Shown in pieces: positions 2,023 through 28,652 of a stretch of DNA of 34,433 nucleotides; position 1 is the first letter of the stretch, and the number at the start of each line of letters is the position of its first letter. The notes below the pieces were generated by a model. The model ran no database searches and had not been told where the DNA came from. It was given only the letters and a program-made list of their open reading frames with translations. Source of the stretch: Pirellulales bacterium (GTDB lineage: Bacteria > Planctomycetota > Planctomycetia > Pirellulales > JAICIG01). The position numbers and the translations under genes were made by a program. The stretch covers positions 1-34,433 of the forward strand of contig DATLUO010000051.1 of NCBI GenBank assembly GCA_035533075.1. The letters are read 5' to 3'.

Positions 2023-3602
2023 CGATGTCCGTCCTTCTCGATGAGCTCCGCGGCCGGAACGCTCGGATGCACCATTCCCCCCTTGGTTCGCTGGATTTTC
2101 GACAGCCCCGACTCTTGCCGGGCCTTCGTCTGTTCCAAATCGGTGAACAGCATCAGATCGCGGTCGAGAACAACGCAGTTCAACGCCTGCAAGGCCAGCA
2201 GGGCCGCCAGCGACAAGCGGAACCAGCGGCCCAGAGACGGCAACCATTCGACCGCCAGCAGGGCGCCGATGGGCATCATGAACAGCCACAGCCGGCACGC
2301 TTCACCGCGGTTTGTGCCGGCAAGATCCAAAAACGCCAGCATGGCCAGCCAGACGCACAACAGCGGATCGGCCCGCCGCAGCACGGCGACTCTGCCGGCC
2401 AGAAAGACCACCAGGGGCAAACCGAGTGCGGCGCCGAACTCAAGCAGATTCACCAGCGTCCAGGCGCCATAGCTCTGCCGATACTGCTGATTGAACTCGA
2501 CGTTCTTGGCGAAATTGACGCTCCAGGTCGACCAGGAGTTATGTCCGGCAAAATAGATCGCCGCAACCACGGCCAACCAGCCCAGCGGCGCGGCGCAAAC
2601 CGATGCGACGGTGGGACGTTTGCCCGTCAGCGACTGGCCGATGATATAGGCCGCCGCCAATCCGCCGATGATAAAAAAACACGTCGAGAAAAACGTGCCG
2701 ACGCCGAGCACGATGCCCGCCAACGCGGCGGCCGGCCACCACCGCCGCTCCCAGGCCGCGTGACTTAAAGCCAGCACGAGGAGTGCGACCGCCGGGTAAA
2801 CCGTATCGCACCGCGGCGCAAACAGGGGTTCCACCGGCAACAGCAGGACGACGCTGGCGACGGCCAAGGCGGCTTTCCGCCCCGCGCGTGCCGCGGCCAG
2901 CCAGGCCGCTGGGATGGCGCCCGCGAAGCAGAGCAGACGGCTGAGGGCGGCGATGGTGGCCAACGCCGCCTGCTCGTTGAGCGGCACGCCGATCGTACCA
3001 CTCATGCGGCGCAGTCGCCACGGCAACTCCCTGGGCGCGAGATCCCACACAAACCGAGCCAGCCGCGGATGCTCCGTATAGAACTTCATGGTGCTGGCGT
3101 AGACGACGACCCAGCCGGGCGGGTTGGCCGAAAAGTGGTGCGGGTCTAAATCGCGAATGATCTCGGCATGATCTTTGAGCAGGTGCGGCAGGTCATTGCC
3201 ATAATGCCGTGCGGCCGCATGAAAGCCGTTCGCACTATACGAGTGCAGGATGGCCCATTTCTGCAACCCGCCAGGCGTGGCCACCTCGCAAAAGAACTGA
3301 AACACCGACGCGAGTGCGATGCAAACGGCGATCGCGCCGACGAACCGCCGGCGCGGGCAGCCGTCGATCCATGTGGCCGCCCACGTCGCCCAGCCGATGA
3401 GCAATGCCACGGCAATCGCGGCCGGCAAAAACAGAACCCATTCCGCCGTGGCTTCGGACCAAACGTCGGGCGTAGGCCAAATCCATTCGTCCGGGATGCC
3501 CAAGGGAAACCAGTCGCCGTCGAAGGCGACGAAGAACGCCGCCAGCGCCGCGGCGCTGATCGCCAGAAGGAGGGCGGGAACGAGGGGTGTCCGGTCAGAC
3601 AT
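2019..3602 (-). CDS. Polytopic membrane protein, possible GT-C type glycosyltransferase
   Basis: A protein of 527 residues with roughly ten to twelve hydrophobic helices, the first at about 8-26. Two features suggest the GT-C (ArnT/PMT-like) fold but do not prove it: an acidic first periplasmic loop (GIPDEW, residues 35-40) and an H-x(4)-NPPGW motif (residues 156-164) in the next large loop, resembling the HPPG-type motif of some lipid-dependent glycosyltransferases. If so, it would move a sugar from a polyprenyl carrier on the outer face of the membrane. Its stop overlaps the start of the Ser/Thr kinase gene (ATGA at 2022-2019), so the two are probably co-translated. No strong Shine-Dalgarno precedes the ATG. 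It could also be a membrane protein without enzymatic function. Confidence 0.85.
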   Translation of the reverse strand: MSDRTPLVPALLLAISAAALAAFFVAFDGDWFPLGIPDEWIWPTPDVWSEATAEWVLFLPAAIAVALLIGWATWAATWIDGCPRRRFVGAIAVCIALASVFQFFCEVATPGGLQKWAILHSYSANGFHAAARHYGNDLPHLLKDHAEIIRDLDPHHFSANPPGWVVVYASTMKFYTEHPRLARFVWDLAPRELPWRLRRMSGTIGVPLNEQAALATIAALSRLLCFAGAIPAAWLAAARAGRKAALAVASVVLLLPVEPLFAPRCDTVYPAVALLVLALSHAAWERRWWPAAALAGIVLGVGTFFSTCFFIIGGLAAAYIIGQSLTGKRPTVASVCAAPLGWLAVVAAIYFAGHNSWSTWSVNFAKNVEFNQQYRQSYGAWTLVNLLEFGAALGLPLVVFLAGRVAVLRRADPLLCVWLAMLAFLDLAGTNRGEACRLWLFMMPIGALLAVEWLPSLGRWFRLSLAALLALQALNCVVLDRDLMLFTDLEQTKARQESGLSKIQRTKGGMVHPSVPAAELIEKDGHR

Positions 3603-3699: not shown

Positions 3700-3774
3700 G
3701 TAGGGTGGGAGCGAGCGAGCTTGCGAGCGCCGGCCCACCATCTGGAAGGCGTTGGGCGATAGGCGTTAGGCACT
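3700..3774. repeat. Half copy of the composite repeat: one arm plus heptamers
   Basis: The arm at 3700-3741 starts GTAGGGTGGGAGCGAGC and ends GGCCCACCAT. It is followed by 7-bp units AGGCGTT (3747-3753), GGGCGAT (3754-3760), AGGCGTT (3761-3767) and AGGCACT (3768-3774). There is no second arm; the terminator-like hairpin at 3780 takes its place. Confidence 0.8.
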
Positions 3775-5987: not shown

Positions 5988-6030
5988 ATGGTGGGCCGGC
6001 GCTCGCAAGCTCGCTCGCTCACACCCTACG
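5988..6030. repeat. Single palindromic arm of the composite repeat family
   Basis: The copy reads ATGGTGGGCCGGCGCTCGC at one end and ends in CACCCTACG, with GCTCGC repeated inside. It lies between the terminator at 5943 and the ribosome-binding site of the aldolase gene, so it would be in that gene's 5' leader if transcription reads through. Confidence 0.8.
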
Positions 6031-6908: not shown

Positions 6909-6958
6909 GTTTCAATCCGCCCTTGCTCGCGACGGGCAAACCATTTTGAGATGCTGTG

Positions 6959-7002
6959 AAAGCTCCGCGTGCCCCCCTCAGGCACGGCCGGAGCTTTTTT
7001 TT
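6959..7002 (+). terminator. Strong intrinsic terminator upstream of the giant kinase gene
   Basis: AAAGCTCCG (6959-6967) pairs with CGGAGCTTT (6989-6997) and CGTGCC (6968-6973) with GGCACG (6981-6986), leaving a two-base GC bulge. Eight T follow at 6995-7002. It may simply end the aldolase transcript. With the promoter at 6879-6908, however, it would create an ~85-nt transcript or a controllable leader for the kinase gene at 7054. Confidence 0.8.
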
Positions 7003-7053
7003 GTGCATGAGGCGTTACGTCAGAATCTTCCTTTACGGCAACTGAGGCCCATC

Positions 7054-10000
7054 ATGGCGACGGTCGCACCAGACAAACATTCGTCAACGGCTGGCTCCAA
7101 CGGAAACGGCGACAAAGTCGCGCGGCGTGCCACGCGTGCTATTGTCGGCAAAGTCGATAACGGGCGCCCCGCGTCCGCGCCACAAAGCGAAACGCCCGTC
7201 CACAAAGACGACGGCCGCGACCTGCTCGACAAGCGGCAATTATTGGCCGCCCTGATGGCCCTCAAGAAAGGCGAGTTCCGTGCCCGGCTTCCCTCGGACC
7301 TGACCGGCATCGATGGCAAGATCGCCGACACCTTCAACGACGTGATCGAGCTCAACCAACGGATGGCCAACGAGCTGGAACGGCTCAGCCGCGTCGTCGG
7401 CAAAGAGGGGCGGCTGTCGCAACGCGCGGCCATCGGCTCTCTCAGCGGCGCTTGGGCCGATTCCATCGCCTCCGTCAACGCCCTCATCGGCGATCTCGTC
7501 TATCCCACCACCGAAATCGCCCGCGTGATCGGCGCCGTGGCCAAAGGCGATCTGTCGCAGACCATGGCCATGGAGACCGAGGGCCGCCCGCTCAAGGGCG
7601 AGTTCTTGCGCACCTCGAAAACCGTGAATACGATGGTCGAGCAGCTCAGCTCGTTCGCCAGCGAAGTCACCCGCGTGGCCCGCGAAGTGGGCAACGAAGG
7701 AAAGCTCGGCGGGCAAGCCAAAGTGAAAGGCGTGGCCGGCACCTGGAAAGACCTGACCGACAGCGTGAACTCGATGGCCGGCAACCTCACCGGGCAGGTG
7801 CGCAACATCGCCGCCGTGACCACGGCCGTGGCCAACGGCGACTTGTCGAAGAAGATCACCGTCGACGTCAAAGGGGAGATTCTCGAACTCAAGAACACCA
7901 TCAACACGATGGTCGATCAGCTTCGCTCCTTTGCCAGCGAAGTGACCCGCGTGGCCCGCGAAGTGGGCACCGAAGGCAAGCTGGGCGGGCAGGCCGACGT
8001 GCCGGGCGTGGCCGGCACCTGGAAGGATCTCACCGACAACGTGAACTTCATGGCCGGCAATCTCACCAGCCAGGTGCGCAACATCGCCGACGTGACCAAG
8101 GCCGTGGCCGCCGGCGACCTCTCGCGCAAGATCACGGTGGACGTGAAGGGTGAAATCCTGGAGCTGAAAAACACGGTCAATACGATGGTCGATCAGCTCA
8201 GCTCCTTCGCCGCCGAAGTGACCCGCGTGGCCCGCGAAGTGGGCACCGAAGGCAAACTGGGCGGGCAGGCCGACGTGCGCGGCGTGGCCGGCACCTGGAA
8301 GGACCTCACCGACAGCGTGAACTTCATGGCCGGCAACCTCACGGCCCAGGTGCGCAACATCGCCGCGGTGACCACCGCCGTGGCCAACGGCGACCTCTCG
8401 AAAAAGATCACCGTCGATGTGAAGGGCGAAATCTTGGAGCTGAAAGACACGATCAACACGATGGTTGATCAGCTCCGCGCGTTTGCCAGCGAAGTGACGC
8501 GCGTGGCCCGCGAAGTGGGCACCGAAGGCAAGCTCGGCGGACAGGCCGACGTGCCCGGCGTGGCCGGCACCTGGAAAGACCTGACCGACAACGTGAACTT
8601 CATGGCCGGCAATCTCACGGCCCAGGTGCGCAACATCGCCGACGTGACCAAGGCCGTGGCCGCCGGCGATCTGTCGCGCAAAATCACGGTGGACGTGAAG
8701 GGTGAAATCCTGGAGCTGAAAAACACGGTCAATACGATGGTCGATCAGCTCAGCTCCTTCGCCGCCGAAGTGACCCGCGTGGCCCGCGAGGTGGGCACCG
8801 AAGGAAAACTGGGCGGTCAGGCCGACGTGCGCGGCGTGGCCGGCACCTGGAAGGACCTCACCGACAGCGTGAATTCGATGGCCGGCAACCTCACGGTGCA
8901 GTTGCGCGACGTGTCGAAGGTGGCCACGGCCATCGCCACCGGCGACTTGACGCAGAAGATCACCGTCGATGTGCGCGGCGAGATTTTGCAGATCAAGAAC
9001 GTGATCAATACGATGGTCGATCAGCTCAGCTCCTTCGCCGCTGAAGTGACCCGCGTGGCCCGCGAAGTGGGCACCGAAGGAAAGCTCGGCGGTCAGGCCG
9101 ACGTGCGCGGCGTGGCCGGCACCTGGAAAGACCTGACCGACAGCGTGAACTTCATGGCCGGCAACCTCACCGGGCAGGTGCGCAACATCGCCGCCGTGAC
9201 CACGGCCGTGGCCAACGGCGACCTCTCCAAGAAAATCACCGTGCCCGTGCGCGGAGAAATTCTGGAACTGAAAGACACGATCAATACGATGGTCGATCAG
9301 CTCAACTCGTTCGCCAGCGAAGTGACCCGCGTGGCCCGTGAAGTGGGCACCGAAGGCAAGCTCGGTGGCCAAGCCGACGTGCGCGGCGTGGCCGGCACCT
9401 GGAAAGACCTGACCGACAGCGTGAACTCGATGGCCGGCAACCTCACCGGGCAGGTGCGCAACATCGCCGCCGTGACCACGGCCGTGGCCAACGGCGACTT
9501 GTCGAAGAAAATCACCGTCGATGTTAAGGGCGAGATTCTGGAGCTGAAGAACACGATCAATACGATGGTCGATCAGCTCCGCTCGTTCGCCAGCGAAGTC
9601 ACGCGTGTGGCCCGCGAAGTAGGCACCGAAGGCAAGCTCGGTGGCCAGGCCGACGTGAAGGGCGTGGCCGGCACCTGGAAAGACCTGACTGACAGCGTGA
9701 ACTTCATGGCCGGCAACCTCACCGGCCAGGTGCGCAACATCGCCGACGTGACCAAAGCCGTGGCCGCCGGCGACTTGTCGAAGAAAATCACCGTCGATGT
9801 GAAGGGCGAGATTTTGGAGCTGAAGAACACGGTCAATACGATGGTCGATCAGCTCAACTCGTTCGCCAGCGAAGTGACCCGCGTGGCCCGCGAAGTGGGC
9901 ACCGAGGGAAAACTGGGCGGCCAGGCCGATGTGAAGGGCGTGGCCGGCACCTGGAAAGACCTGACCGACAACGTGAACTTCATGGCCGGCAACCTCACCA

Positions 10001-13000
10001 GCCAGGTGCGCAATATCGCCGACGTGACCAAAGCCGTGGCCGCCGGCGACCTCTCGCGCAAGATCACGGTCGACGTGAAGGGCGAAATCCTGGAGTTGAA
10101 AGACACCATCAACACGATGGTCGATCAGCTTAACTCGTTCGCCAGCGAAGTGACCCGCGTGGCCCGCGAAGTAGGCACCGAAGGGAAGTTGGGCGGCCAG
10201 GCCGACGTGAAGGGTGTGGCCGGCACCTGGAAAGATCTCACCGACAACGTGAACTTCATGGCCGGCAACCTCACCAGCCAGGTGCGCAACATCGCGGTCG
10301 TGGTCACCGCCGTGGCCAACGGCGACCTGACGCGCAAGCTGGCGGTCGATGCCAAGGGCGAAATCGCCGCGCTGGCCGACACGATCAACGGCATGATCGA
10401 CACGCTGGCCACGTTTGCCGACCAGGTGACCACGGTGGCCCGCGAAGTGGGCGTCGAAGGCAAGCTCGGCGGTCAGGCCAGCGTGCCCGGCGCCGCCGGC
10501 ACGTGGAAAGACCTCACCGACAACGTGAACCAGCTCGCCAACAATCTCACCACCCAGGTGCGTGCCATCGCCGAAGTGGCCACCGCCGTGACCAAGGGCG
10601 ACCTGACGCGCAGCATCACGGTCGAAGCGTTCGGCGAAGTGGCCGAGTTGAAGAACAACATCAACGAAATGATCGTGAACCTCAAGGACACGACGCTCAA
10701 GAACAACGAGCAAGATTGGCTCAAGACCAACATGGCCAAGTTCAGCCGCATGTTGCAGGGCCAAAAGGACCTGCTGGCGGTGGGCCGCTTGATCTTGTCG
10801 GAACTGGCCCCGGTGGTTTCGGCCCAGCAGGGCGCCTTCTACACGATGGACGTGACGGGCGAAGATCCGGTGCTCAAGCTGCTGGCCAGCTACGCCTACA
10901 AAGAACGCAAGAACATCGACAACGTGTTCAAGATGGGCGAGGGCCTGGTGGGCCAGTGCGCCCTGGAGAAGGAGAAAATCCTGCTCACGAACGTTCCGGC
11001 CGACTACATCAAGATCACCTCCGGCCTGGGCGAAGCGTCGCCGCTGAACGTGATCGTCATCCCCATCGTGTTCGAAGGGCAAGTCAAGGCGGTGATGGAG
11101 CTGGCGTCGTTCGACCGCTTCAGCCCCACGCACGAGACCTTCCTCGATCAGTTGACCGAGAGCATCGGCATCGTGCTCAACACCATCGAGGCCAACACCC
11201 GCACGGAAGACCTGCTCAAGCAGTCGCAATCGCTGGCCCGCGAGCTGACGACGCAGCAACAAGAGTTGCAGCTCACCAACCAGCAGTTGGGCGAAAAGGC
11301 GCAACTGCTCGCCCAGCAGAACGTGGAAGTGGAGCGCAAGAACCAGGAAGTCGAGCAGGCCCGCCGCGCATTGGAAGAGAAGGCCACGCAGTTGGCCCTC
11401 ACCACGAAGTACAAATCGGAATTCATGGCCAACATGTCGCACGAGCTGCGGACGCCGCTCAACAGCTTGTTGATCCTTTCCGATCAGCTTGCCCGCAACA
11501 CCGAGGCAAATCTCAACCCGCGGCAAGTCGAGTTCGCCCAGACGATCCACGCTTCGGGCAACGACCTGCTCTCGCTGATCAACGACATTTTAGACATCTC
11601 GAAGATCGAGTCCGGCACGGTCGTTCTCGACGTGGGGGACATCAGCTTCCGCGATCTGCACGATTACGTCGAGCGGAGCTTCCGCCACGTGGCCGAAAGC
11701 AAGCGGCTGGGCTTCAGCCTCAGTTTCGCGCCCGATCTGCCGTTTGCCTTGCAGACCGACGTCAAGCGCTTGCAGCAGGTCATCAAGAACCTGCTGTCGA
11801 ACGCCTTCAAATTCACCGAGCGGGGTGTGGTCTCGTTCCACGTGGCGACGGCCCGTGCCGGCTTCAGCACCGAGAACGATACGCTCCGCCGAGCGCCGTG
11901 CGTGCTGGCGATTTCGGTCTCCGACACGGGCATCGGCATCCCGGCCGACAAGCAGCAACTCATCTTCGAGGCCTTCCAGCAGGCCGACGGCAGCACCAAC
12001 CGCAAATACGGCGGCACCGGTCTGGGTCTGGCGATCAGCCGCGAGATCGCCAATCTGCTGGGCGGTGAGATCCGCCTGCAAAGCGAGCCGGGCAAGGGGA
12101 GCACCTTCACCCTTTACCTGCCGCAGGTCTATGTGCCGGCCAAGCCGGTGCGCCGCGAGCTGACTCCCGCGATGCATAAGGCCAAGGCTTCGGCGCAGCT
12201 CATCGAGGCCGAGGCGGCCTTGGCGGCCGAAGAGGACGCTGAACTCGGCCCCGCCACGATCGAAGTGGACGACGACCGCGACCGCCTGCAAGCCAGCGAC
12301 AAAGTGGCTTTGATCGTGGAAAACGACCCCATTTTCGCGCGCCTGATGTTGGAGGTCGCCCGCGAGGACGGCTTCAAAGCGGTGGTCGCCGCGCGCGGCG
12401 CCGAAGCGCTGATTCTCGTTCACCAGCTCCGCGTACACGCCGTCACACTCGATATCCACTTGCCCGACATCGACGGCTGGCGCGTTTTGGCTCAGTTGAA
12501 GGAAGACCTCTACACGCGCCATATACCGGTCTACATCGTGACCACCGAAGAAGAACGCGAACGCGGGCTGAAGATGGGCGCCATCGGCGCGTTGGCCAAG
12601 CCGCTGCAGCGGAGAGACGATCTGGGGCCGGTGTTCGACCGCTTGCGCGCGGCGGCCGCGCCGGGCCTGAAGACGCTGTTGATCGTCGGTCCCGACGACG
12701 CGCGCCGCGCCGAGATCGTCGATCTTGTCGCCGGCGACGACATTCAAACGATCGCCATCAACTTCGGCGACGCGGCGCTGGGCGCGTTGAAAGCACAATG
12801 TCCGACTTGTGCGGTCGTTCTGACGGCCGGATCGCCGCGGCGGCTGTTCGAGTTCTTGGAGGCGATTCGACGCCTGCCGGAGCTGGAAAACCTGCCGACG
12901 ATTGCGGAAGTCGACGACGAGCTGTCGATCGAAGACGAACAGCGCTTGAAGCGGCTGGCACAAACGATGGTGGTCAAAGACGTCCGCTCGCCCGAACGGT

Positions 13001-13473
13001 TGGTCGACGAGGTCGCCTTGTTTTTGCACCGCCCGGTGGAGCTGCTGCCGCAGGCCCGCCGTGAAATGTTGGAACGGCTGCACCGGGCCGAAGCCGTGTT
13101 GGCCGGCAAGAAAGTGTTGCTGGTCGACGACGACATCCGTAACATCTTCGCCATGACCAGTGTTTTGGAACGGCACGCCATGCAGGTCTTTTCGGCGGAG
13201 ACGGGCACGGCGGCACTCGACTTGTTGAACGGCATGCCCGATATGGACGTCGTGCTCATGGACATCATGATGCCGCACATGGACGGATATGATACGATGC
13301 GGGCCATCCGTGCCTCGGAGCAGTTCAGTTCGTTGCCGATCATTGCCTTGACGGCCAAGGCCATGAAGGGCGACCGCGAGAAGTGCATTGAGGCCGGCGC
13401 GTCGGATTACATCGCCAAGCCGGTCGATACCGAGCACCTGTTGGCGATGCTGCGTGTGTGGCTACATAGATAG
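7054..13473 (+). CDS. Giant cytoplasmic poly-HAMP hybrid histidine kinase with three receiver domains
   Basis: A protein of 2139 residues with no membrane helix. Order: an N-terminal degenerate HAMP-like unit (~65-198), eleven 92-residue HAMP-type repeats (199-1210), a GAF domain (~1235-1385), a coiled coil (~1390-1450), HisKA with the phospho-acceptor His1463 in SHELRTP, an HATPase domain with N and G boxes, receiver 1 (Asp1800 in [11 protein letters not shown]), a degenerate receiver 2 (~1873-2008) and receiver 3 (Asp2070 in [11 protein letters not shown]). The architecture matches poly-HAMP kinases such as fungal group III kinases (Nik1/Os-1 type), which are cytoplasmic and respond to osmotic or antifungal stress; the signal here is unknown. 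The start at 7054 has GAGG six bases upstream, and the longer frame would run back across the terminator at 6959-7002. A second hybrid kinase follows downstream, so phosphotransfer between them is plausible. Confidence 0.95.
7648..10683 (+). repeat. Eleven in-frame tandem 276-bp repeats coding for HAMP units
   Basis: Units begin at 7648 and recur every 276 bp without any indel to 10683. Each encodes a 92-residue unit starting [14 protein letters not shown] and ending NTMVDQL. Units 1-10 are nearly identical in protein; unit 11 and the tail of unit 10 diverge. Two linker types alternate ([15 protein letters not shown] and [15 protein letters not shown]), and unit 5 has a unique one ([15 protein letters not shown]). 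Confidence 0.97.
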
Positions 13474-13476
13474 TGG

Positions 13477-13614
13477 TCAGGGTTCAGGGTTCAGGGTTCA
13501 GGGTTTTGGACTTGGGTCTTGGGACTTGGGTCTTGGGTCTTGGAAGGCAACGCGATCCCTCATCCCTCATCTGAACCCTGAACCCTGAACCCCGAACCCC
13601 GAACCCTGAACCCC
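13477..13614. repeat. Inverted heptamer arrays filling the gap between two kinase genes
   Basis: Left array: TCAGGGT four times (13477-13504), then TTTGGAC and TTGGGTC/TTGGGAC units (13505-13539). Right array: ATCCCTC twice (13555-13568), then TGAACCC/CGAACCC six times (13572-13613). The outer TCAGGGT and TGAACCC families are reverse complements, so the block can fold into a long hairpin. The right array touches the GTG start of the next gene and leaves no Shine-Dalgarno. Confidence 0.92.
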
Positions 13615-18576: not shown

Positions 18577-19545
18577 TTAGCGAAGATTTTCCGGGCGACC
18601 GCCGGCCGCCAGCGCCGCTCCGCCGCCCTCTTCCAGGGCGAATTCGGCCCAGATCGGCAGATGGTCGGAGACGGCCAGCGCCTGCTGCAGAGAAAGGTGG
18701 AACTCGTGCATCAGGTCGAACACGCCGGCATGCCGCGCGTATTCGACCGTCGTTCGCGAGTCGAACAAGATGTTGTCGTAGAGGTGCGTGCCGCGCGTGT
18801 TGGTGGGCACGCCCGAAATCACCCAAGTGATGTAAGCCACTTGGCCCAGTTCGCCCAGATGACGGTCGTCGGCGTTGAGATCGCCCAGCAGGATGATGTC
18901 GTCTTCTCCACGGCCGTCGTCGCGCACGGCCCGGAACACGTCGTCGAGCACGTTCAGCTCGGCCTGGGCCTCGTCGGGGTCGGTGTGGATGTCGATCAGG
19001 GTGAACGTGAAGGCACGGTCGGGCGGCGGCCCGCGCACGCGAAAACCGGCCACCAGTGGCTCGCGGTGCAACAGATCGTCGGGGTCGTCCACCGTGTAGA
19101 CGTTCTGGCGGTCGCACTCGACGCTGGCGGCGTTGTAGATGAAGGCGTATTGCTCCTTGCTGTTCGTGCGTCCCAGCCGCGGGCCGATGACGTAGTCGTA
19201 GTGCGAGCCGTCGGCATTCACCAGTTCCAAAAACCGCGGCAGCAAGTCATCGCTGGCGTCGCGGATTTCCTGGACGGCGACGACGTCGAAATAGCGCACC
19301 ACGCGGGCCAGCAGGTCGGCCGCCTGGGTGTTGGCCAGCTTCTTTTCGCCGAACACCTGGATGTTGAACGACGCCACGCGGACGGTATTGCCGCTGCGTT
19401 CGATCGGCGGCGCGCCGGCCAGCGTGCCGCCGGCTCCGCCCCCCAGCGGCAGGTGCTGCCAGAACCCACCGGGAAGCTTCGAGTTGGCGTACCAGGCAAG
19501 CGCCGCCACGAGCGCCGCCGCGATGGAGATCAATCGTTTCCGCAC
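18577..19545 (-). CDS. Membrane-anchored DNase I-like endonuclease
   Basis: A protein of 322 residues. An N-terminal hydrophobic helix (about 5-20) anchors or exports it. The rest is an endonuclease/exonuclease/phosphatase domain closely resembling animal DNase I: ASFNIQVFGEKK (Asn61), VQEIRD (Glu93), YDYVIGPRLGR, IDIHTDP (His187), GDLNADD (Asp222, Asn224), THLYDNIL (Asp257) and SDHLP (Asp294, His295). All the catalytic positions expected of DNase I are present, so it is probably an active, metal-dependent DNA endonuclease outside the cytoplasm. The GTG at 19545 is chosen because a strong Shine-Dalgarno AAGGAGGG lies at 19557-19550; an ATG at 19587 would place that site inside the gene. Confidence 0.93.
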   Translation of the reverse strand: MRKRLISIAAALVAALAWYANSKLPGGFWQHLPLGGGAGGTLAGAPPIERSGNTVRVASFNIQVFGEKKLANTQAADLLARVVRYFDVVAVQEIRDASDDLLPRFLELVNADGSHYDYVIGPRLGRTNSKEQYAFIYNAASVECDRQNVYTVDDPDDLLHREPLVAGFRVRGPPPDRAFTFTLIDIHTDPDEAQAELNVLDDVFRAVRDDGRGEDDIILLGDLNADDRHLGELGQVAYITWVISGVPTNTRGTHLYDNILFDSRTTVEYARHAGVFDLMHEFHLSLQQALAVSDHLPIWAEFALEEGGGAALAAGGRPENLR

Positions 19546-19631
19546 CGGTCCCTCCTTGGTCGGCCCCAGGATACCCGAATCCCGCATTGCGGCCCTAGGC
19601 CAGATTGTTGATCGGTCCGTAGCGCACGAGC

Positions 19632-19790
19632 GTAGGGTGGGACCAGCGAGCTCGCGAGCGCCGGCCCACCGCCAACGGGTTCAGGGTTCAGGGTTCAGGA
19701 ATACCTGAACTGACCTTTGCCCGACGCCTGACGCCTGACGCCTGAACATGGTGGGCCGGCGCTCGCAAGCTCGCTCGCTCCCACCCTACG
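19632..19790. repeat. Full composite repeat: inverted arms around two heptamer arrays
   Basis: Arm 1 is at 19632-19671 and the inverted arm 2 at 19748-19790. Inside are TCAGGGT units (19681-19694, then TCAGGAA to 19701) and CGACGCC/TGACGCC units (19722-19742). It lies in the divergent region between the DNase I-like gene and the gene at 20181. Confidence 0.9.
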
Positions 19791-19842
19791 ACGCCCCCGT
19801 TGGCGCGAACGCTTCTCACCCGGGCGGCGTAGCAATTATCAG

Positions 19843-19899
19843 GACGGGACGTCCTCCAAAGAGACGCGCTTGAAGCGCCGGAGGACGCCCCGTCTTTTT
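19843..19899 (+). terminator. Long hairpin with T-run
   Basis: A 15-bp stem (19843-19857 with 19880-19894, one A/C mismatch) encloses a smaller GCGCTT/AAGCGC hairpin and is followed by five T (19895-19899). No plus-strand gene precedes it, so it may be another dispersed hairpin repeat or may end an unrecognised transcript. From 19900 to 20180 I see no gene. Confidence 0.55.
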
Positions 19900-20180
19900 G
19901 TTAACGGCTGACGGTTCTGCCTGTCGGGACCGCCGCGCCGGATGACGCGGCGGCCGATTTGACCCGATCGGCAAGGCTTCGCCAGCGACGGCGAAAATCG
20001 TGGCGGCAATCGGCTTGCCTTTGCCGCCCCGGCCGCAGCCGGGTGCTAGACTAGTTTTGTGGCGGAGTGTCACCGGGCCGGCATGCCGCGGCCGGGGCAA
20101 TCGGCCGGCGGATCCGGTAAAGCGGGCAGTTCCGTCCGTGCGGGCAAGGGCGAAGACAACGAAGAGGCATTAGGGCATCC

Positions 20181-20879
20181 ATGGGCTTCCTGAAGAAGTT
20201 CTTTCGCAACGTGTTTCGCGACGGCGCGGCGCCCACCGGCACCGCCAGCAGCTTTGAGCGGCTGAGCGAAGAGGAGTTGGAGGCACACTTGGGCGTCGTC
20301 CGCTACGGCAGCTTCACCTTGACCGACGCCATCCGGCCGTCGTACGACCTGCAAGTCGTGCCCGCTCAGGGTTACCGGCACGACGTCTACCACGACGAGC
20401 AGTCGCGCGCCGCCGTGCCGGTGTTGATGGGCGCCGCCTCGAACCAGCACTTGTTCGAGGTCTTCATGGAGCTGCTCGACCCGCTGGGCTTCGAGGTCGA
20501 CGTGGTGCTGGAAACCAGCCACAACCGCGAGAACCGGGGGCACGTCGATCTCTATCGAGAACATATCGACCTGCCCGTGCTCAAGAGCGTCCTCTATGAA
20601 TACGAAGAGCTCTTGCTGAACGACGGCTGCACCGGGATCGCGGTGCTCAATCCCGGCATTCCGCAAGAAGTGCAATTCGACGAGCACAAGCTGCTGATCG
20701 TCTACGGCGAGAACCTCCGCGAGTTCGAAGAGATATTCTCAGGTCGCGGCGTGCCTTGCGACGATCAGATGAAGTTCATTACCGAAGCCGAGCACGTTCA
20801 TTCCTCCAGCGACCAGTATCTGGAGCAGTTCGAAGAGCTGAAGATGCGGCTGGGCATGGATTCGTTCGGCGGCTGGTAA
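20181..20879 (+). CDS. Conserved hypothetical protein, 232 residues
   Basis: I recognise no domain of known function. The product is soluble and acidic, with no signal peptide or membrane helix. It begins with a basic amphipathic stretch (MGFLKKFFRNVF) and ends with a helical acidic segment (SSDQYLEQFEELKMRLGM). The middle mixes beta-like stretches such as RPSYDLQVVPAQGY with D/E-rich turns. The ATG has AGGG six bases upstream. It has its own transcription direction, with a convergent WD40 relic downstream and a hairpin at 20903-20967 between them. Coding is supported by length, composition and the start site. Confidence 0.8.
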   Translation: MGFLKKFFRNVFRDGAAPTGTASSFERLSEEELEAHLGVVRYGSFTLTDAIRPSYDLQVVPAQGYRHDVYHDEQSRAAVPVLMGAASNQHLFEVFMELLDPLGFEVDVVLETSHNRENRGHVDLYREHIDLPVLKSVLYEYEELLLNDGCTGIAVLNPGIPQEVQFDEHKLLIVYGENLREFEEIFSGRGVPCDDQMKFITEAEHVHSSSDQYLEQFEELKMRLGMDSFGGW

Positions 20880-21850: not shown

Positions 21851-21925
21851 GGCAACGGCTTCACATAAAGCGAGGGGAATCCCCCGTTAGCCTACTCGCC
21901 GTCCAGCCGGATTGCCAGCATTTGC

Positions 21926-22037
21926 GTGGTCCGTGGTCCGTGGTTAGCGGTTAGCGGTTAGTGGTTAGTGATTAGTGGTTAGTGATTAGTGGTTAGTGGT
22001 TAGTGGTTAGTGAACCCAAGACCCAAGACCCAAGTCC
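21926..22037. repeat. Sixteen consecutive heptamers with drifting sequence
   Basis: The 7-bp phase is unbroken: GTGGTCC twice, GTGGTTA, GCGGTTA twice, GTGGTTA and GTGATTA alternating, then GTGAACC, CAAGACC twice and CAAGTCC. The motif changes family halfway without losing the register. It sits upstream of the two-gene module at 22153. Confidence 0.93.
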
Positions 22038-23651: not shown

Positions 23652-24926
23652 TCAACTGGTGTGTTCCTTGTAGTACTCCGCCGAGCCGGTGAAGCCGGCG
23701 ATCACGTCTTCGTTGGTCTCGCCGTTGGCGAACTGCGCGAGCCAATAGGCGAGCCCGCCTGCGTCGGCGGCTCGGCCCAGGTAGTGCATATAGTCGTCGT
23801 TGATGAGCTGTGTGTTGTTCTCGGTGCTGCCGGCGATGCCCGTCGCCACCTGCGAGCGCGTCTGGCCGGCCGCCAACTCGCTTTCCCAAAAACCTTCGCC
23901 CGCCGTGTCAGCCATACGACCCAAGAGAAGCTGACAGGCCGCGTCGATCCAGTCCTTATCGGTGCCGCCGGCGTTCTTGTAGAACTCGTCGGTGGCAATG
24001 AAACCCGCCTCCAGCCCTTGGTCGGTCAGTCCGTTCTGCAATTGCGAGGTCCAGAATTGGATGCCCGCCGCGTCGGCCGCTCGGCCCAAGAGCGTCAAAT
24101 AGTCGGGCTTGATGACGAAGTTCTCGTAATACTCGGCGCTGTGGACGATCGCCTGCGCGACGTCGCTGATCGCCATGCCGCCGACGATCTGCTGGGTCCA
24201 ATACTGCAAACCGGCCGCGTCCGCTGCGCGGCCCAAGACGTCGAGAAACACGGCGGCCACGTATTTCGCTGAGGCCGTGGCTTGCGGACCGACGGTCGCA
24301 TTGCCGTTGAGCACTGTCGAGACGCCCTCTTCGATCGCGGTGATCTTGGTGGCGAATTCGCCGGCGGAGGTGTTGGTGTGCGAGCCGACGACGGTGTAGG
24401 TACCGCTCGATTCGCTCACGGTGCCGGCCGAGGTCTGGCCGTCGCCCCAGTCGATCGTGGCGGAGAGGCCGGAGGCCGGTTCGCTGCCGTCGCCGTGCGT
24501 GAAGGTGGCCACGGTGGCCGCTGAGATTGCCGTGCCCGGCGTGCCGGTGAGTGCCGCGCCTGTGCCGTTGATCGGCGCTTCGGTTACGGTAACGCTGTCG
24601 GTGGCCGTGGCGTCGGGCAAGCCGGCGCGCCGAATTACCACGTTCACGGTTTCGGGCGATGCGCTCTCTTCAGCATAGACGTGGCTGCCCGTGACGGTGA
24701 ACACGCCGCTGGGGTCGGGGCCGGTGATGGCGCCGGCCGAGGCACTCGAGCCGTCGCCCCAGTCGATGGTGGCCGAGTAGCCGCTGAGCGGGCCCGCTCC
24801 ATTAGGATCGGTGAAGGTGGCCACGGCGGCATTCAAGGTCGTTAGCTCTGCCGCGGAGATCGCGCCCACGGCGGTGGCACTTACAGCGACTCCGGCGATA
24901 GCGGAAACCGTCACGGCATCCTGCAC
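23652..24926 (-). CDS. C-terminal part of a large surface protein, PKD-like and DUF4214 repeats
   Basis: About 424 residues remain. Residues ~20-210 hold two PKD/Calx-like units (SATIDWGDGSSASAG and SATIDWGDGQTSAG). Residues ~220-424 hold four DUF4214-type repeats with LGRAADAAGLQYW-like cores near 231, 280, 335 and 383. In planctomycetes such modules end very long secreted or adhesive proteins. There is no signal peptide and no ribosome-binding site. An in-frame stop lies about 36 bases before the GTG at 24926, and the upstream reading frame belongs to an immunity-like gene. It therefore looks like the tail of a giant gene whose front was lost by recombination. Expression is doubtful. Confidence 0.75.
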   Translation of the reverse strand: MQDAVTVSAIAGVAVSATAVGAISAAELTTLNAAVATFTDPNGAGPLSGYSATIDWGDGSSASAGAITGPDPSGVFTVTGSHVYAEESASPETVNVVIRRAGLPDATATDSVTVTEAPINGTGAALTGTPGTAISAATVATFTHGDGSEPASGLSATIDWGDGQTSAGTVSESSGTYTVVGSHTNTSAGEFATKITAIEEGVSTVLNGNATVGPQATASAKYVAAVFLDVLGRAADAAGLQYWTQQIVGGMAISDVAQAIVHSAEYYENFVIKPDYLTLLGRAADAAGIQFWTSQLQNGLTDQGLEAGFIATDEFYKNAGGTDKDWIDAACQLLLGRMADTAGEGFWESELAAGQTRSQVATGIAGSTENNTQLINDDYMHYLGRAADAGGLAYWLAQFANGETNEDVIAGFTGSAEYYKEHTS

Positions 24927-27541: not shown

Positions 27542-27708
27542 GTAGGGTGGAAAAAGCGAGCTTGCGAGCGCCGGCCCGCCATGTTTGAGGCGATAGGCGA
27601 TAGGCGTTGGGCGTTAGGACAGCATCTTCACACCGCGCCTAACGCCCATCGCCTGACGCCTCCATTACGGTGGGCCGGCGCTCGCAATCTCGCTGGCCCC
27701 ACCCTACG
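27542..27708. repeat. Full composite repeat upstream of cstA
   Basis: Arm 1 is at 27542-27582 and the inverted arm 2 at 27669-27708. Inner left heptamers are AGGCGAT twice, AGGCGTT and GGGCGTT (27588-27615). Inner right heptamers are CCTAACG, CCCATCG and CCTGACG (27638-27658), reverse complements of the left type. A partial third arm (TGGTGGGCCG) follows at 27711. The whole is an imperfect 167-bp palindrome. Confidence 0.9.
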
Positions 27709-28612: not shown

Positions 28613-28639
28613 GTAGGGTGGGCCGGCGCTCGCACGCTC
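28613..28639. repeat. Partial arm of the composite repeat family
   Basis: GTAGGGTGGG is joined directly to CCGGCGCTCGCACGCTCG, so the centre of the arm is deleted. It lies just downstream of the DUF4340 gene stop. Confidence 0.65.
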
Positions 28640-28652
28640 GTCTCAGCCTACT

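Follow-up and report, generated by a model that had tools for sequence, protein, structure and literature searches.

REPINs with heptamer repeats between their arms, and a RAYT flanked by the same REP sequence, in a Pirellulales genome

Introduction

Short palindromic arms recur in a stretch of 34,433 nucleotides from a Pirellulales bacterium (GenBank assembly GCA_035533075.1, contig DATLUO010000051.1, here C51), called the window below, and some of them are set head to head around tandem heptamers. What are these arms, how have they spread, and how did heptamers come to lie between them? The original prediction, made from the sequence alone, listed eight arms of about 40 bp and a partial one at 28613, and considered REP/BIME-like units moved by a RAYT-type transposase, DNA architectural sites or transcript-end hairpins. 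Our follow-up indicates that the arms are very probably REP sequences and their inverted pairs REPINs, non-autonomous elements copied in trans by an HUH/tyrosine transposase (RAYT) encoded on contig C135 of the same genome. They represent a form, proper to one species, of this known class of tiny mobile elements of bacteria and are unusual in that many copies hold seven-base tandem repeats, in variable number, between the arms.

Materials and methods

The source genome is a draft of 8.54 Mb in 296 contigs (99.0% complete, 2.7% contaminated). Whole-genome figures are pattern counts; direct reading covered about 14% of the genome, a sample of 1,162,538 bases including the window. The contigs of this sample were partly picked for listed arms or Y1 matches, so that it describes the arms and not their density. 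Genes were called with our own hexamer script (810 genes, 83% coding), and their starts are uncertain. A loose regular-expression scan for arms was dropped, having returned 133 matches against 62 in the reversed control, and a profile with 0 matches in the control was used instead. The two planctomycetes compared for heptamers were picked for having them.

Results

All nine arm places in the window were found again by repeat search, alignment and profile, with limits within about 1-4 bases of those first given, and the three inverted pairs enclosing heptamers proved real in the repeat search. Base 1 of the window is base 1 of the contig, and the arm there is truncated by the contig end. The features are as follows (no strand is given for elements that have none).

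1-129: REPIN 1, with a left arm at 1-30 that is truncated by the contig start, a subfamily-1 heptamer spacer at 31-90 and a right arm at 91-129 (repeat search, profile, linker search, L227)
3700-3739, plus: single REP arm whose inner flank holds GGCGTTA-type heptamers, no second arm found (repeat search, profile)
5990-6029, minus: single REP arm (profile)
13477-13613: stand-alone heptamer element without REP arms, G-rich then C-rich, units TTCAGGG and TTGGGTC followed by TGAGGGA and TTCAGGG (G-strand spelling)
19632-19670, plus: REPIN 2 left arm, outer end GTAG (profile)
19671-19749: REPIN 2 spacer, 79 nt, subfamily 2, with a GGGTTCA array at about 19677-19699, a linker and a GACGCCT array at about 19719-19743 (repeat search, linker search, L224)
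19750-19789, minus: REPIN 2 right arm (profile)
21925-22034: stand-alone heptamer element, G-rich then C-rich, with differing units TTAGTGG and TTGGGTC
27542-27580, plus: REPIN 3 left arm (profile)
27581-27668: REPIN 3 spacer, 88 nt, with inverted GGCGATA/GGCGTTA-type heptamers (repeat search)
27669-27707, minus: REPIN 3 right arm (profile)
28613-28651 (found again as 28617-28651), minus: solo palindrome GTAG...CCCACC-CTAC, probably a collapsed REPIN (repeat search, profile)

The window contains longer repeats as well. At 6946-13473 (plus strand), a 2175-aa hybrid histidine kinase contains HAMP domains (11-12 matches) that correspond to eleven tandem repeats of 276 nt; behind them come GAF, HisKA, HATPase and two receiver domains. 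Direct repeats of 312 nt lie at 24438-24783 within a predicted minus-strand gene.

The commonest arm in the genome is GTAGGGTGGGACCAGCGAGCTTGCGAGCGCCGGCCCACC. The pattern GTAGGGTGGGNNNAGCGAGCTTGCGAGC, with up to 3 mismatches, occurs in 757 copies (376 forward, 381 reverse), where the original prediction would have been given up at fewer than a few dozen; the backwards-read control gave 0. In 809 kb the profile matched 82 arms at E<0.01, and the reversed sequence gave no match. Conservation above that of neutral spacer, claimed from the window, is thus far beyond chance as a likeness among arms; selection on individual sites found no support, and the likeness reflects recent copying of one family. 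The arm pattern was absent from 96 relatives (1 of the same family, 95 of the same order), and an exact arm match was sought without success in a wider genome contig collection, from which the source genome is possibly excluded.

The REP unit of 39-40 bp consists of an unpaired GTAG followed by a bulged hairpin closed by GGTGGG/CCCACC. Among the 110 arms starting at model position 1, the head is GTAG in 94 and GTAA in 16, and the 6-bp stem with a bulged inner stem formed in all five arms folded. Single arms fold at -9.6 to -10.3 kcal/mol with z of only -1.3 to -1.8, mildly better than shuffles. The unpaired 5' tag, the adjoining stem-loop and the high copy number are those of GTAG-REPs; extragenic placement is less certain, with 46 of 123 arms overlapping our home-made gene calls; of these arms, 30 lie no more than 200 nt from a start that is itself uncertain, and 14 lie deep inside. 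Outside GTAG, the search for a target-site consensus gave a mild C/T preference at position -1 (0.27 bit) and nothing more.

The 1.16-Mb sample contains 123 arms, 72 paired and 51 single. Neighbours less than 250 bp apart were +- in 36 cases and ++ in one, never -+ or --, and all 36 close inverted pairs point GTAG outward, never inward. Randomly placed arms gave a mean of 3.7 close neighbours in any orientation (maximum 10 in 500 trials). The paired arrangement is therefore found well beyond the window, with 36 head-to-head pairs against 0 tail-to-tail. The REPIN whose fold was computed as a whole reaches -63.9 kcal/mol (z -11.5); inverted REPs, outward tags and, in this one case, a single-hairpin fold are the traits of a REPIN. 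Paired arms show no clear gain in conservation over single arms (47.4 and 46.3 bits, p 0.23; exact consensus in 37/72 and 19/51). CCCACC runs straight into CTAC or TTAC in 9 of 45 single arms and in none of the 65 paired arms tested. Since such solo palindromes occur only among single arms, they fit deletion between the CCCACC repeats of a pair, and the partial arm at 28613-28651 is probably a REPIN collapsed in this way.

A Y1 gene with the same flanking arms, as the original prediction suggested looking for, lies on C135 (L083).

1423-1461, plus: arm, 33 nt before the start codon
1495-2055: RAYT reading frame, 186 aa, GTG start
2077-2115, plus: arm, 21 nt after the stop
2188-2226, minus: inverted arm further downstream

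Pfam Y1_Tnp (PF01797) matches 12 places in the genome and NCBIfam NF047646 gives 17 matches with E up to 1.63, many of them weak or fragmentary; the best NF047646 match is on C135 (170 bits, cut-off 80). Residues 1-171 of the C135 protein match E. coli TnpA-REP (PDB 4er8, E 6.6e-37), and its motifs DHWH and YVHWNP presumably correspond to the HUH motif and the catalytic tyrosine. A TnpA-REP-type HUH-Y transposase with the same REP on both sides has the traits of a REPtron and is the predicted cognate transposase of the arm family. On contig C138 (L095, about 41052-41250), a frameshifted remnant covers C135 residues 121-185 in two frames at 69-77% identity, with a REP arm just behind its stop; it is a decayed second REPtron. 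The best PF01797 match, on C67 (L031), has a REPIN 1 kb away and was rejected as the cognate gene: the palindrome immediately beside it is a different one, and the gene is scored as IS200.

Several Y1_Tnp places are flanked by other palindromes. The Y1 gene in L031 (C67) lies between palindromes of the GCCGCGTAGCGGC and CCGTGGGC...GCCCACGG types, and that in L032 (contig C218) is flanked by a palindrome of the AGCCGGCTTTAGCCGGCT type. On contig C26 of the source genome (G000), a 330-aa frame with two Y1_Tnp domains (19509-20291, L037/L039) lies within tandem palindromic units CATGCCGCCCGCTTGCCGGGCGG. On contig C190 (about 2640-3074, L042/L085), a RAYT-like gene is flanked by another GTAG-headed palindrome, GTAGGGAACGCC...GGCGTTCC, and the genome thus seems to hold several couples of RAYT and palindrome.

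A scan of named genomes yielded 18 relatives of the C135 RAYT. The flanks of nine (L190-L198, 53-78% identity) were read, seven in records titled planctomycetes and two (L194, L196) in a MAG titled Candidatus Nealsonbacteria, and by eye GTAG-headed inverted palindromes stand on both sides of all nine. The two nearest relatives (76 and 78% identity) have an arm closely resembling that of the C135 family, and in the others its body differs more, again by eye. This covariation of RAYT and REP is directly observed, and in the sequences compared the palindrome bodies appear to diverge along with the enzyme. The genome of L190, with the 76%-identical RAYT, contains 65 copies of its own REP variant (control 0). 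No heptamers were found in its REPINs, a weak test in that 20 stretches around the 65 listed sites gave 2 close pairs and the second arm is differently shaped.

The pair spacers fall into two classes, 18 of the 36 measuring 10-19 nt and 18 measuring 41-108 nt, in place of the constant length of a single group. Short spacers are most often 18 nt long and centred on GACGTC. Among the 18 long ones, 13 contain period-7 repeats (one of these, 68 nt long, was assigned through its linker, its run being short), two contain period-8 runs and three neither. The long spacers mostly consist of two heptamer arrays, a left one rich in G and a right one rich in C: C outnumbers G in the right half of all 13 heptamer spacers and in the left half of none. 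At least five repeat types lie between or behind arms (GGCGTCA, GGGTTCA with GACGCCT, GGCGTTA, GGATTTT and 8-mers).

Two spacer subfamilies were followed through the genome by their linkers. The linker of subfamily 1 has 33 matches, and of the 30 fetched, 22 have both arms, 4 the left only, 2 the right only and 2 none; that of subfamily 2 has 19 matches (6 both, 9 left only, 2 right only, 2 none), and some copies of the subfamilies are truncated by contig ends. Counted by eye, the left array of subfamily 1 varies from one to about six units and that of subfamily 2 from two to about fifteen. Linker copies with flanking arms throughout the genome show that the heptamer REPINs have been copied together with their heptamers. 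In subfamily 2 (L211-L222) the right arm is lost more often than the left, and several copies stop just past the CGCCT unit; the bias in arm loss may hint at one-ended copying.

Heptamers are also found by themselves. A strict scan of the sample returned 120 period-7 arrays, while no other period between 4 and 13 gave more than 2; 83 of the 120 are outside our home-made gene calls. Head-to-tail 7-bp units, intergenic position and over-representation relative to other periods are traits of STRR-like repeats. There are about ten unit types, and frequent ones in the spelling of the G-rich strand are TTCAGGG, TTTTGGA, TCAGGCG, TTAGTGG and TGAGGGA. Of 78 strong arrays, those within REPINs included, 45 have a partner of opposite polarity ahead of the G-rich strand, none has one behind, and 33 have no partner. 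Among neighbouring arrays within 150 bp, away from REP arms and at a permissive threshold, the order was G-then-C in 25 cases and C-then-G in none (GG 9, CC 9); neighbours with differing units gave 13 and 0, and units sharing at most 4 of 7 bases 10 and 0. One C-then-G pair enters when the window is widened to 300 bp, and an earlier TRF-based count with other thresholds (up to 150 bp) gave 22 and 1. The sample contains 33 G-then-C elements, 24 of them without REP arms. As the G-then-C order is its own reverse complement, the direction of replication or transcription is unable to set this polarity, and the order is present in all four gene contexts. A terminator-like origin, with gene direction setting the G-rich strand, was rejected (8 G and 10 C in ++ contexts, 16 and 16 in -- contexts). 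That the stand-alone elements are cores of other palindromes was likewise rejected, mean flank complementarity being 5.46 against 5.88 for mismatched flank pairs.

In the two other planctomycetes, 30 and 13 period-7 arrays stand against at most one of any other period, with forward partners for 3/29 and 6/13 and backward partners for 0 and 0. Period-7 arrays were found in 2 of 20 relatives, sampled at 3-20 kb each, and the GGGTTCA pattern in 6 of 294 genomes of the phylum, the source genome among them; none of 229 genomes in the class of G386 had the Xanthomonas-type GGGAATC pattern. Ku was rejected as the gene behind the heptamers: it does not track them, being present in 2 of 4 genomes with heptamers and in 4 of 13 others. 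In another planctomycete (G008, L182 near 5048), a perfect GTAG palindrome, GTAGGACGGATTGCAATCCGTCCTAC, lies amid heptamer arrays, so that REP-like DNA and heptamers meet there too.

Discussion

The reading of the arms as REPs and of their pairs as REPINs copied by the C135 RAYT, the first of the possibilities originally raised, is well supported because of the copy number, the GTAG head, the head-to-head pairing, the arm-flanked RAYT gene and the matching, diverged palindromes of its relatives. Somewhat against it count the paired arms, which are not clearly better conserved, the variable spacer length and the 51 of 123 arms that are single, as do the 2 close pairs, free of heptamers, that the L190 genome gave; no empty site or excision read came to light. 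From what is known of the family and from the anatomy of the locus, a REPIN present as single-stranded DNA would form a hairpin whose foot, together with GTAG, would be recognised by the RAYT, which would then cut the element and move or copy it. The base form would be a REPIN with a 10-19-nt spacer, from which several subfamilies would have gained heptamer arrays inside the pair, with G-rich arrays to the left and C-rich ones to the right. These arrays would sit in the upper hairpin stem and travel along when the REPIN is copied, their unit number changing. On the plain reading, the heptamers are thus passengers of the hairpin stem in changing number, possibly growing by slippage.

The heptamers themselves could be ordinary microsatellites produced by polymerase slippage, with the G-then-C polarity coming from selection for hairpins or from their templated repair, and we would give this somewhat less than an even chance. 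A bacterial excess of heptamers and slippage as its explanation have been published (PMC4692102, PMC4679880), the unit number varies among copies, and same-unit pairs are able to fold. However, only period 7 is enriched among periods 4-13, and the polarity holds for units sharing at most 4 of 7 bases, where hairpin folding does not require it. The strict period together with the unit-independent order is not accounted for by simple slippage, and the two make the origin of bacterial heptamer repeats testable.

It is rather unlikely that the heptamer REPINs are composite in origin, with single REPs inserting to the left and right of heptamer hairpins that were already there and the whole then moving as a unit, the heptamers being older than the REPIN at the founding sites. 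The armless heptamer elements and the variety of repeat types next to arms would fit such a history. Against it, heptamers are far more frequent between arms than outside: of 82 arms, 33 have them in the inner 110 bp and 10 in the outer 110 bp (random windows: 105/5000), though copies within one subfamily are not independent. In addition, the ends of long spacers resemble short spacers by eye, which fits acquisition inside an existing REPIN.

The other possibilities originally raised, architectural sites and transcript-end hairpins, found no support. It is improbable that the arms are terminators, mRNA-stabilising hairpins or gyrase/IHF-type sites, each kept by selection. A whole REPIN does form a strong hairpin, and E. 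coli REPs have secondary roles. Yet the pairs lie in all gene contexts (-- 13, ++ 12, +- 6, -+ 4), and the arms are absent from the relatives searched. By our home-made gene calls, 59 of the 123 arms lie nearest to the 3' end of a gene and 49 nearest to a 5' end, without a clear preference for 3' ends.

Heptamer arrays might also be scars of DNA ends, a highly doubtful proposal. G-rich heptamers would be added to 3' ends at a break and the ends then joined, giving G-then-C junctions like those of head-to-head telomere fusions; the tips of REPIN hairpins would be a preferred place, and the RAYT would then spread the loops. The two ends would not need to carry the same unit. Such scars would explain the one-way polarity, its validity for differing units (13:0) and its presence in all gene contexts. 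Counting against them are Ku, which does not track the heptamers, the stand-alone elements, which are not in palindromes, and the partnerless arrays (33/78). We know of no enzyme for the addition of heptamers at DNA ends. If the proposal were true, it would mean a telomere-like end-healing activity in bacteria.

Finally, movement of the arms by a RAYT of this genome other than the C135 enzyme is extremely unlikely: the NF047646 matches and the many contigs leave room for one, but in a scan of 27 loci the arms outside C135 lie roughly 1 kb or more from the gene (L031/L094, L032, L035/L086) or behind the C135-like remnant in L095, C135 alone is an intact gene with arms immediately on both sides, several other Y1 loci carry other palindromes, and the relatives of C135 carry related ones.

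The REPINs of this genome share with those of P. fluorescens SBW25 (Bertels and Rainey 2011, PMC3116915) the inverted REP doublets, the hairpin, the many extragenic copies and the REP-flanked RAYT. The spacing described for SBW25 is typical for each group (71 or 110 bp), whereas here it is 10-19 or 41-108 nt, the long spacers being mostly heptamers in variable number. Doublets are reported to be clearly better conserved than singlets in P. fluorescens, whereas no clear difference is seen here. With the GTAG REP super-family (Di Nocera et al. 2013, PMC3733652) the arms share the GTAG tag, head-to-head dimers with outer GTAG and repeat-specific REPtrons. These authors describe GTAG families in Planctomycetes, Rhodopirellula baltica included, as well as variable dimer spacers, so that a fixed length is not defining. 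Our family, compared with theirs by text description, could coincide with one of the 24 for which they give consensus sequences. Dimers inserted in palindromes and structured spacers are reported there, and tandem heptamers within dimers go unmentioned in the sections on GTAG families, links to other repeats, dimers and transposases. Searches of the open-access literature gave no paper that we recognised as describing heptamer arrays within REP dimers or heptamers at breaks.

The enzyme of the E. coli REP/BIME system, TnpA-REP (PDB 4er8), is homologous to the C135 RAYT, and the stem sequence differs. GTAG recognition is described for E. coli (PMC6006769); in GTAG family 3, which holds the Escherichia REPs, TT dimers outnumber HH dimers, and the dimers of Enterobacteriaceae are heterodimers (PMC3733652). 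One RAYT with its own REP family is a known pattern (PMC6006769, PMC3733652), and the series of nine relatives with co-diverging enzyme and palindrome should be useful for learning how RAYTs read REPs.

The heptamers of Xanthomonas and Nostoc (Rehm et al. 2015, PMC4692102) have in common with ours the period of 7, a mostly intergenic position and G-richness, and those of Beggiatoaceae and cyanobacteria (PMC4679880) the period and the mostly intergenic position. Rehm et al. report 70 and 75 convergent plus/minus pairs of the same unit in two xanthomonads. Published work already covers GTAG REPs and head-to-head dimers, with their occurrence in Planctomycetes (PMC3733652), as well as the heptamer excess and the convergent single-unit pairs of Xanthomonas (PMC4692102). 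To these the present analysis adds a planctomycete REPIN family of about 760 arms with its putative RAYT, and REPIN subfamilies with differing array lengths, in which nature has in effect replicated an experiment on repeat growth, a single element standing at many sites with a variable unit number. Compared with the heptamers described in those reports (PMC4692102, PMC4679880), this genome stands apart in its about ten unit types, its frequent differing-unit pairs of one polarity and its arrays inside a mobile REPIN.
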